From the IMG/VR virus record IMGVR_UViG_3300006738_000119, positions 1 through 20,920 of that record: a stretch of 20,920 bases of DNA; one strand, written 5' to 3'. The translations under genes were made by a program, and so were the position numbers. Positions 13,615 through 15,786 of the stretch are shown one piece after another. Position 1 is the stretch's first letter. Each line of letters opens with the position of its first letter. Source of the stretch: a virus. The notes under the pieces are model-generated. The model made no database searches. It saw nothing but the letters and a program-made list of their open reading frames with translations, and was not told the origin of the DNA.

Positions 13615-13630
13615 ATGCACGATAGTGCAT
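13615..13630 (+). promoter_or_regulatory. Hairpin covering the methyltransferase start codon
   Basis: ATGCAC (13615-13620), loop GATA, and GTGCAT (13625-13630) form a perfect 6-bp stem. Its 3' arm includes the first two bases of ATG 13629. No AGGAG-type ribosome site lies in the 40 bases upstream, and an in-frame TAG at 13623 rules out an earlier start. The DNA palindrome could also be an operator, since C5 methyltransferases of this class sometimes repress themselves. Confidence 0.45.
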
Positions 13631-14525
13631 GATGGCCGGGAACTCCCAACCCAGCAGAACACACCTGGATCTCTTCTCCGGGATTGGAGGGTTTGCACTG
13701 GCAGCAAGATGGGCCGGATTGCAGACGATCCAGTTTGTAGAGCTTGATCAGTACTGCCAGAGGGTGCTGAAGAAAAACTTTCCAGACGTTCCAATCCATG
13801 ACGATGTCAAAACACTGGACGGCACCCAGTTCAAGGGCATTTTTCTAATCACAGGAGGTTTCCCATGCCAGGATATTTCAATTGCAGGAAAGGGTGCAGG
13901 AATTGATGGAGAAAGGTCAGGTCTTTGGACAGAACTCTTTAGGATTATTAGCGAAGTACGACCACGCTTCGCACTCGTGGAGAACGTTCCAGCTCTCACT
14001 TTTCGAGGAGGAACCAGAGTCATTGGAGACCTTACCGAAATCGGGTATGACTGTGAATGGCAAATTGTGGGAGCAGACGATGTGGGCGCACCACACCGGA
14101 GGAAGAGAATCTGGATTGTGGCTTACTCCAACAGCAACCGAGTATTTTCCACCACTCAAAAACATTTCCAAAATAGACCCAAAGAAAATGAAAAAGAGAG
14201 GCAAGCACAGTCTTGCAACTCAAGTCCATCATCCACAGATGTGGCCTACTCCAAGAGCGCAGGATGCCAAACATGGAGCAGCAACAGAATGGGAACTGAA
14301 CACGGATCACGCAGGAACGAGAGACTCCCTCCGGGTGCAAGTGGAACACCGGAAGACAGAAGTAGAGGCGGGTGGAAGCCTGAACCCTCAGTGGGTCGAG
14401 TGGCTCATGGGATACCCAAGCGGGTGGACCGACTTAGAGGACTAGGCAATGCAATCGTGCCTCAAGTTGCCTATGAAATCATACATGCAATGCAAGGAGA
14501 TGAATGCCTAGAATCCGACGGATGA
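13629..14525 (+). CDS. DNA (cytosine-5) methyltransferase (298 aa)
   Basis: It transfers a methyl group from SAM to C5 of cytosine in DNA. Motif I is LDLFSGIGGF (13-22), motif IV GGFPCQ (76-81) with catalytic Cys80, motif VI ENV (118-120), motif VIII VGAPHRRKRIWIVA (152-165) and motif X GLGNAIVPQVA (271-281). The region between VIII and X, which should recognise the target, is short and low in complexity (Asn/Ser/Gln-rich with repeated VAYS). From residue 85 to 273 the same DNA is also open in the +1 frame (see 13882-14445). ATG 13632 is an alternative start; neither has a good ribosome site. The role could be protection from host restriction, or supplying 5-methylcytosine for further modification. 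Confidence 0.92.
   Translation: MMAGNSQPSRTHLDLFSGIGGFALAARWAGLQTIQFVELDQYCQRVLKKNFPDVPIHDDVKTLDGTQFKGIFLITGGFPCQDISIAGKGAGIDGERSGLWTELFRIISEVRPRFALVENVPALTFRGGTRVIGDLTEIGYDCEWQIVGADDVGAPHRRKRIWIVAYSNSNRVFSTTQKHFQNRPKENEKERQAQSCNSSPSSTDVAYSKSAGCQTWSSNRMGTEHGSRRNERLPPGASGTPEDRSRGGWKPEPSVGRVAHGIPKRVDRLRGLGNAIVPQVAYEIIHAMQGDECLESDG
13882..14445 (+). CDS. Overlapping +1-frame ORF inside the methyltransferase (187 aa)
   Basis: The frame is open for 188 codons entirely within the methyltransferase gene, starting at TTG 13882 or ATG 13906 (an AGGAAAGGG purine run lies 13 bases or more before the latter). It does not look random: HASHSWRTFQLSLF, LPKSGMTVNGKLWEQ, GLWLTPTATEYF, MWPTPRAQDAKHG and NPQWVEWLMGYPSGWTDLED. 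I recognise this set of short motifs from phage proteins annotated on their own as methylase-related or hypothetical. Each motif lies over a conserved methyltransferase segment: WPTP shares DNA with VAYS, and NPQWVEWLMGYP with EPSVGRVAHGIP. It may be a translated overlapping gene, or a by-product of the methyltransferase sequence. No function is known to me. Confidence 0.5.
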   Translation: MQERVQELMEKGQVFGQNSLGLLAKYDHASHSWRTFQLSLFEEEPESLETLPKSGMTVNGKLWEQTMWAHHTGGRESGLWLTPTATEYFPPLKNISKIDPKKMKKRGKHSLATQVHHPQMWPTPRAQDAKHGAATEWELNTDHAGTRDSLRVQVEHRKTEVEAGGSLNPQWVEWLMGYPSGWTDLED

Positions 14526-14902
14526 CCTCAAAGGTCTGCGAAGAATGCCAGGCAACCTACACGATTCCGGCACACCGTGGAATCAAACAGAAATACTGTA
14601 GCCCTGCCTGTGCAACTAGGAATGTCTCTGCAAGAAGGACAATCAAACCAAATGAGGCACAACTCGAAGGACATCGAAATGCAGTCGCCCTGGCGAAGCA
14701 CAAGGCAGAAGAACATCCGGATCCAACACCAGAGGAAGTGAAGGATGCCGTCAGGATGTTTCTAGACTCAGGAGGTGTGATCAAAACCATGAATCCTCAA
14801 CCGAAGATTGCACTCCTAGCGCATGAGAAAGAGGATGAACTCGAACTGATCCATACGGTTCTCAGTGCAGTCATACCTCCAGATCCGTTGAAATCTCCAT
14901 GA
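14504..14902 (+). CDS. Zinc-finger hypothetical protein (132 aa)
   Basis: Start 14504 has AAGGAG about eight bases upstream and overlaps the methyltransferase end by 22 bases; ATG 14522 is a second choice. The N-terminal 45 residues carry a Cys4 finger: VCEECQATYTIP then KQKYCSPACATRN, an arrangement also found in HNH-associated and other phage zinc knuckles. The rest is helical and acidic, with no HNH catalytic residues. It ends DPLKSP, encoded by the first copy of the 17-bp repeat that brackets the next gene. DNA or RNA binding is likely; the exact role is unknown. Confidence 0.7.
   Translation: MPRIRRMTSKVCEECQATYTIPAHRGIKQKYCSPACATRNVSARRTIKPNEAQLEGHRNAVALAKHKAEEHPDPTPEEVKDAVRMFLDSGGVIKTMNPQPKIALLAHEKEDELELIHTVLSAVIPPDPLKSP
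14886..14902 (+). repeat. 17-bp direct repeat, left copy
   Basis: CGTTGAAATCTCCATGA occurs here and again, identically, at 15770-15786. This copy covers the stop of the zinc-finger gene and the start of the radical SAM gene (ATGA). Flanking bases differ between the copies. The pair brackets the radical SAM coding region exactly. Confidence 0.9.
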
Positions 14903-15786
14903 AAATAGGACTCTATGATCTTGACTCCAAGATTCCAAACCTTGCACTGATGAAGTTGTCGGCATGGCATCAGGCACAGGGAGATCAGACAGAATTGTAT
15001 TTCCCTCTGGCACATGATTCCTACCACAAGATCTATGCATCCAAAATCTTCAACTTCTCCAGTCGTGCGTATCTGCGGGATGATATGCAGATTGGAGGAA
15101 CCGGGTATGACATGGCAGTGAAATTGCCGGAGGAGGTCGAATCCGTCGCGCCTGACTACTCACTCTACAACTATCCGCACAACATCGGGTTTGCAATGCG
15201 AGGATGCAGGTTCAAATGCGAGTTCTGCGTGGTTCCTCAGAAAGAAGGGTCTCCCAAAGCAGTCAACTCAATCTCAGGGATCTGGACGCAGAGAAGCAGC
15301 AGGCTCCTCGTCTTGCTGGATAATGATTTCTTTGGAAATCCAAACTGGTCAGACTGCATTGATGAAATCAAGGAACTGAACCTCGCTGTGAACTTCAGCC
15401 AAGGACTCAACATCAGGATCATCTCTGAAAGACAAGCACAGGCACTCGCATCCGTCAAATTCCGAAATCTCCACAACACCAGAAGCCAGGTGACTTTTGC
15501 ATGGGATCAGATTAAGGATGAACGCACCATCCTCAGAGGATTCAAGCGTGTGGTGTCTGCCGGAATTAAACCCTGGCAGATCCAGTTCTATGTCCTCATA
15601 GGATTCGATAGTTCTCCTGAAGAGGATATGCATAGAGTGATGTCAATCAAACATCTGGGTGCTGATCCGTTCGTGATGCCCTATGTCAAAACGGATCCAT
15701 ATCAGAAACGGTTTGCACGATGGGTGAACCGGAAACAGATCTTCAACTCATGTGGGTTTGATGAATACTCGTTGAAATCTCCATGA
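14899..15786 (+). CDS. Phage radical SAM enzyme (295 aa)
   Basis: The iron-sulfur motif CRFKCEFC (C103-x3-C107-x2-C110) follows GFAMRG, as in radical SAM enzymes, which use a [4Fe-4S] cluster and SAM to make a radical. The N-terminal 90 residues (MKIGLYDLDSKIPNLALMK ... GGTGYD ... PDYSLY) match a phage-borne radical SAM group in which a B12-binding-like domain precedes the barrel. LLDNDFF, NFSQGLNIRI and VTFAWDQIKDE are later barrel strands of that group. The substrate is unknown. Its position after a C5 methyltransferase makes DNA-base modification a candidate role, but RNA or protein substrates are possible. The gene starts by ATGA coupling and is flanked by a 17-bp direct repeat. Confidence 0.85.
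   Translation: MKIGLYDLDSKIPNLALMKLSAWHQAQGDQTELYFPLAHDSYHKIYASKIFNFSSRAYLRDDMQIGGTGYDMAVKLPEEVESVAPDYSLYNYPHNIGFAMRGCRFKCEFCVVPQKEGSPKAVNSISGIWTQRSSRLLVLLDNDFFGNPNWSDCIDEIKELNLAVNFSQGLNIRIISERQAQALASVKFRNLHNTRSQVTFAWDQIKDERTILRGFKRVVSAGIKPWQIQFYVLIGFDSSPEEDMHRVMSIKHLGADPFVMPYVKTDPYQKRFARWVNRKQIFNSCGFDEYSLKSP
15770..15786 (+). repeat. 17-bp direct repeat, right copy
   Basis: Identical to 14886-14902. Here it encodes the last residues (LKSP) and stop of the radical SAM protein, and again ends in an ATGA. The ATG in this copy opens only a 10-codon frame (MIKEETPAGA), possibly the remnant of a gene that once followed the zinc-finger gene directly. Confidence 0.9.

Follow-up and report, generated by a model that had tools for sequence, protein, structure and literature searches.

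A nested +1-frame gene that very probably encodes the second subunit of a two-polypeptide C5-cytosine methyltransferase in phages

The window, meaning the whole stretch of DNA that was analyzed, is a 20,920-base IMG/VR virus record in which the neighboring genes that were identified are phage genes. Its methyltransferase gene (alpha) contains in the +1 frame a second gene (beta), which is a real, conserved and selected protein-coding overlapping gene. Judged from sequence comparisons, the locus very probably encodes a two-polypeptide C5-cytosine DNA methyltransferase in which beta supplies the missing small-domain half. An earlier reading of the same DNA, made from the letters alone (the sequence-only reading), saw a gene in this frame; its identity as a second subunit went unrecognized there.

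RESULTS

Alpha carries the catalytic domain and motif X

Profile searches with the alpha protein matched PF00145 in Pfam (E 7e-47) and phrog_363 in PHROGs (E 2e-80). The motifs diagnostic of a C5-methyltransferase, I, IV (PCQ), VI (ENV), VIII and X, were all present, and the motif residues were invariant or near-invariant among 88 sequences. The features of alpha are as follows.

13629-14525, + strand: alpha, C5-cytosine methyltransferase large subunit, 298 aa, with motifs I-VIII and X
13863-13871, + strand: motif IV of alpha with the catalytic PCQ, assigned from sequence; P and C invariant (alignment A5)
13980-13988, + strand: motif VI of alpha (ENV), assigned from sequence; the +1 frame there runs into SWRTFQLSLF
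14082-14127, + strand: motif VIII region of alpha, VGAPHRRKRIWIVAY, assigned from sequence; the M.HhaI alignment terminates there
14154-14414, + strand: variable region of alpha, residues 176-262, predicted disordered; its +1 frame is the candidate recognition region of beta, with WPTPxAxD-type repeats
14442-14471, + strand: motif X of alpha (LGNAIVPQVA), assigned from sequence; begins at the beta stop codon

AlphaFold (88 relatives) modeled residues 1 to ~172 of alpha as the catalytic domain of M.HhaI, mostly with pLDDT >90. Residues 176-262 were predicted to be disordered (pLDDT about 42-58), and the motif X helix resumed after them. The M.HhaI/PDB sequence alignment of alpha ended past motif VIII. 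Since the model is disordered at 176-262 and the alignment ends after motif VIII, alpha is without a small domain; neither AlphaFold, PDB alignment nor dN/dS placed a small domain with a recognition region and motif IX within the alpha chain. The single-chain enzymes M.HhaI and M.HaeIII share the catalytic fold and motifs I-VIII with alpha, but hold the small domain, motif IX and motif X all in one chain and one frame, whereas the window is split.

The +1 frame within alpha is open and has a candidate start of its own

The +1 frame was open from 13849 to 14442, with a stop at 14443-14445, inside 13629-14525. The sequence-only reading had reported an open reading frame at 13882-14445 within the methyltransferase gene, and this frame was present, with a product of 187 aa from TTG 13882 (13882-14445). 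The four +1-frame motifs that it quoted, including SWRTFQLSLF, LPKSGMTVNGK and WPTPRAQDAK, were all confirmed, and frame 0 of the same DNA encodes motifs VI and VIII and the stretch leading to X. Its choice of start calls for a correction. TTG 13882 is the first start codon of the open stretch, but ATG 13906 is preferred on the strength of its recurrent position and of a Shine-Dalgarno-like sequence ahead of it.

13906-14445, + strand: beta, nested +1-frame gene, 179 aa from the preferred ATG
13898-13901, + strand: AGGA, putative Shine-Dalgarno-like sequence 4 nt ahead of ATG 13906, in a TGATG context
14380-14433, + strand: C-terminal motif of beta, LNPQWVEWLMGYPSGWTD, proposed equivalent of motif IX; frame 0 reads EPSVGRVAHGIPKRVDR

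Among 67 loci selected by the alpha N-terminus, 53 had a beta-frame ATG 14-15 codons past PCQ, with a Shine-Dalgarno-like sequence upstream in 45 of the 53, and ATG 13906 of the window sits at this position. A second recurrent beta-frame ATG, at +39, was not among the positions with a Shine-Dalgarno-like sequence. ATG 13906 thus appears to be the better start candidate, the exact start being uncertain, and beta would be initiated independently inside alpha. Earlier beta starts may be used in many relatives whose frame is open further upstream.

A short open reading frame of 13 codons (13865-13906) was observed in the third forward frame of the window, behind AGGAGG (13853-13858), and terminates in the TGATG that includes the beta ATG; it is possibly a coupling leader, or else a product of chance, and lies on the same DNA that encodes GGFPCQD in alpha. 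In a subset of loci (L094, L097, L100, L104, L108 and similar), the beta frame opened about 75 codons ahead of PCQ and spanned nearly the whole methyltransferase gene. Beta may be longer in this subset; across the N-terminal part of alpha, dN/dS of the +1 frame was 0.35-0.40.

The beta protein matched phrog_1008 in PHROGs, annotated 'DNA methyltransferase', over residues 1-185, most of the protein (E 1.8e-19), and had no match in Pfam, NCBIfam or PDB sequences. AlphaFold gave no usable model of beta alone (pLDDT 61, pTM 0.25), an outcome that would fit a partner-dependent protein and proves nothing.

Beta accompanies alpha in phages and in bacterial genomes

A scan of IMG/VR viral contigs with the +1-frame protein returned 338 related stretches; 80 of these were kept, and in all 80 the match lay within a methyltransferase in a different frame. 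A scan of GTDB bacterial and archaeal genomes returned 376 related stretches from many phyla. Both scans select on similarity to beta. As a guard against this selection bias, 80 further viral loci were picked by the alpha N-terminus only, upstream of beta, and the key diversity test uses these loci only; a few contigs are shared between the two viral sets. The beta profile was found in the +1 frame of all 80 loci selected in this way. Among the 73 testable alpha-N-terminus loci, 96% had a +1 frame exceeding the length reached in synonymous shuffles (p<0.05), versus 16% for the +2 frame. Real loci scored above all 20 of their shuffles with the beta profile in 66/67 cases, and control methyltransferases of other layout did so in 0/5.

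Every beta that was found was accompanied by an alpha. Beta stood in the +1 relation to alpha in 252/253 loci, with a median overlap of 758 nt, and its stop lay within the alpha open reading frame in 205 loci of this set. The exception was Mycobacterium phage Ochi17, in which alpha is broken across two frames. The suggestion of the sequence-only reading that an overlapping gene is carried widely with phage Dcm-type enzymes was thus borne out. Its description of this gene as overlooked was correct insofar as beta is mostly unannotated, but Paenibacillus phage Diva gp50 and Escherichia phage K1G ORF30 are annotated and PHROGs holds phrog_1008. All three belong to the same beta family with the same nesting; gp50 is annotated 'g49 internal gene' and ORF30 'Mte8-like', without a second-subunit role.

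Layouts within the family varied at the margins. In Ochi17 (L170 1552-2311, genes 73/74), alpha is split by a frame change relative to phage SG4, and both genes are annotated 'DNA methylase'. Alpha was in more than one fragment in ~20 more loci, a few of which had motif X in the beta frame. At L132, L211, L238 and L071, motif X was in the beta frame and not in alpha, so that this one family also includes an AquI-like layout.

Beta is linked to the small domain through actinophage homologs

In actinophages, beta relatives are encoded in genes that are not nested. LHTSCC gp80, KHumphrey gp43 and Geodirt gp4 carry WPTP-type repeats, the motif LNAAFxEWMMGxxxGWVTD and a same-frame motif X (GNGV). 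The alpha gene of LHTSCC and that of KHumphrey stop soon past motif VIII, with only a slight overlap between the two annotated genes. Window-type beta was homologous to this non-nested beta (hhalign 98%, E 2e-13). The last 60 residues of actinophage beta aligned with motifs IX-X of single-chain enzymes (RLTPRECFRLQGFPD...QAGNSV; hhalign 83%, E 8.6e-6, with small inputs), and actinophage beta matched phrog_116 at 409-490, directly after the alpha part at 206-399. A first hhalign comparison of actinophage beta with a small alignment gave no link and trimmed IX-X ends gave one, while direct hhalign comparison of window-type beta with three single-chain enzymes returned nothing. The proposed assignment of motif IX in beta therefore runs via the actinophage intermediates.

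Because alpha is without a small domain and beta is homologous to actinophage proteins that carry motifs IX and X, we interpret beta as the small-domain half of the enzyme, and the target-recognition region probably lies in beta. Frame 0 would thus yield alpha, made up of the cofactor-binding/catalytic domain (motifs I-VIII) and motif X with a disordered linker of ~90 residues between them, the linker standing where single-chain enzymes hold the small domain. The +1 frame, with its own initiation inside alpha, would yield beta, which would comprise a recognition region containing the WPTPxAxD repeats and, at its end, a motif resembling IX. The two polypeptides would together form a single active enzyme methylating phage DNA, and this methylation would most likely shield the DNA from host restriction. 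We infer from this arrangement an alpha-beta complex, specificity residing in beta and an anti-restriction role.

Beta could instead be a real protein unrelated to the methyltransferase, for example a separate anti-defense protein, that was trapped within the gene. The poor predicted fold of lone beta and its lack of any functional family beyond the 'DNA methyltransferase' annotation are compatible with such a protein. However, beta was always found with an alpha (in +1 in 252/253 loci), alpha is without a small domain, and the end of actinophage beta has motifs IX and X in a single frame, with its phrog_116 match right behind the alpha part. We therefore consider an unrelated function unlikely.

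Both frames are under selection, with a reversal in the variable region

Chance was evaluated in the window by shuffles in which the methyltransferase protein was held fixed and synonymous codons were permuted, with a beta profile trained on other loci. The 187-codon +1 stretch remained free of stops in 0.07% of 20,000 shuffles, the mean being 4.7 stops, and the real +1 frame scored 230 bits against the beta profile versus at most 119 bits in 200 shuffles. Among homologs selected by the alpha N-terminus, a stop fell in the +1 core in 1-2% of real loci versus 33-70% of synonymous shuffles, so that the free interruption of this frame by stops, named in the sequence-only reading as a result that would refute it, was not seen. 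When shuffles were confined to parts of the gene, the real score exceeded all 20 shuffles in 56/67 loci for motifs VI-VIII and in 53/55 for the variable region.

Third-base diversity at 4-fold sites of alpha was determined in 47 non-redundant alpha-N-terminus loci. It was 0.672 before motif IV, 0.486 and 0.436 over motifs IV-VIII, and 0.185 over the DNA that encodes the beta motif LNPxWVEWLMGYPxGWTD, and returned to 0.669 in the 13 codons past the end of beta. Diversity over motif IX was below both flanks in 200/200 random halves of the data. Of the 18 control genes examined for diversity, the single-chain controls had no drop at their own motif IX (0.665, 0.584) and some drop over IV-VIII. 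Because single-chain controls drop there too, the decrease over IV-VIII was not used as proof. The depression of synonymous change across the overlap that the sequence-only reading had proposed to look for was thus present.

Substitution rates were estimated in up to 67 pairs by a simple two-frame count, which classes each substitution by what it does in alpha and in the +1 frame. In the variable region, dN/dS was 1.18/0.81 for alpha versus 0.21/0.14 for the +1 frame. At motif IX the values were 0.67/0.39 for alpha and 0.21/0.12 for the +1 frame, and over motifs VI-VIII both frames were constrained (+1 frame, 0.17-0.45). Past the beta stop, alpha was at 0.25/0.25 and the +1 frame at 0.96/0.93, as for a non-coding frame. 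Alpha is therefore near-neutral in its variable region, with a dN/dS of about 1, and the +1 frame is under purifying selection there. These data agree with the earlier proposal that the +1 frame is the constraining one where the methyltransferase frame is of low complexity.

The same measurements bear on a programmed +1 frameshift after motif VIII, which would give a single fused chain with no independent beta start. Every beta lies in the same +1 relation, and a shift after motif VIII would put motifs I-VIII in one chain with the recognition region and motif IX. What makes such a shift less likely is that the conserved, stop-free +1 frame already begins well before the point at which a shift would be useful, over motifs VI-VIII (dN/dS 0.17-0.45; 56/67 loci); in addition, motif X remains in frame 0 under selection, and the recurrent ATG is preceded by a Shine-Dalgarno-like sequence. 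We regard a frameshift as very unlikely. That there is no second gene, the +1 similarity being a shadow of methyltransferase conservation and base composition, is wholly improbable: shuffled genes keep about 36 bits against the beta profile and single-chain Streptococcus enzymes carry a long +1 frame too, but it is contradicted by the synonymous shuffles, by the sharp recovery of third-base diversity past the end of beta and by the reversed dN/dS of the two frames in the variable region.

In the single-chain C5 methyltransferases of Streptococcus phages (L255, L257, L279, L288, L294-L296 and L303-L306), the +1 frame was open over motifs I-VIII (codons 1-191), for 165-189 codons (p<=0.005 versus synonymous shuffles). 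Two of these frames were compared with the beta profile and did not score above shuffles. This open frame may be left over from an ancestral beta or may have another cause.

DISCUSSION

The two-subunit reading of alpha and beta has a precedent in M.EcoHK31I (YGGCCR), whose small polypeptide, according to Lee, Kam and Shaw in 1995, is reportedly read from an alternative frame within the large-subunit gene. M.EcoHK31I consists of two polypeptides, motifs I-VIII and X being on the large one and motif IX on the small one (PMC3404938), so that by motif layout it resembles the window, with I-VIII and X on the large chain and IX on a second. The placement of the second polypeptide in another frame of the first gene was likewise found in the window family (+1 in 252/253 loci). 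The two differ in that M.EcoHK31I belongs to a bacterial restriction-modification system, whereas the window holds a phage gene. In addition, the recognition domain of M.EcoHK31I was predicted in the large subunit (PMC3404938), whereas the variable part of alpha in the window is near-neutral and predicted to be disordered.

M.AquI (CYCGRG) is also a split C5 enzyme, divided within the recognition region, its small subunit bearing the distal recognition region together with motif IX (PMC3404938). It is resembled by LHTSCC gp81/gp80 and KHumphrey gp42/gp43. The beta subunit of M.AquI carries motif X, whereas in the window motif X is in alpha and beta is wholly nested. Division of a C5 methyltransferase between two genes, the second of which carries IX and X, was also observed at L259 1477-2707 (Javan129 0028/0029) and L260 1492-3376 (Yeet 112/114).

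Two-polypeptide anatomy is thus not new in kind, given the M.EcoHK31I precedent. The points that look new are its near-universal occurrence across a large phage and prophage family, the selection on both frames and the evidence for a recognition region in beta; literature searches found no description of a phage-wide nested-beta family. We lean toward a broader view, in which a very large, phylum-crossing family of phage and prophage C5 methyltransferases would consist obligately of two subunits, the one that confers specificity being encoded in the +1 frame within the gene for the catalytic one. Labor would be split between the frames, with the variable region of alpha kept open almost only for beta, and motif X would have moved between frames to give EcoHK31I-like and AquI-like layouts from one ancestor.

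The pair occurs in hundreds of viral contigs and in bacterial genomes, and the phage records examined usually annotate one frame; cloning of the annotated frame alone would probably yield an inactive or non-specific enzyme. The locus is also a clear example of tailed-phage genes that overlap at length on the same strand, in which selection on both frames is measurable with a natural before/after control. Here the overlapping genes would divide one enzyme between two frames.

No restriction enzyme was recognized among the window genes tested, so an orphan methyltransferase that protects phage DNA is the likeliest role for the pair. Upstream of the methyltransferase is a DnaD-like helicase loader, with RusA, an exonuclease and a RecT-like protein further upstream. 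Downstream are a zinc-finger/HNH-like protein, a radical SAM protein and then the terminase genes.

14899-15786: protein with a radical SAM domain, encoded immediately downstream of the methyltransferase region; phrog_9298 (E 2e-75), no Pfam match
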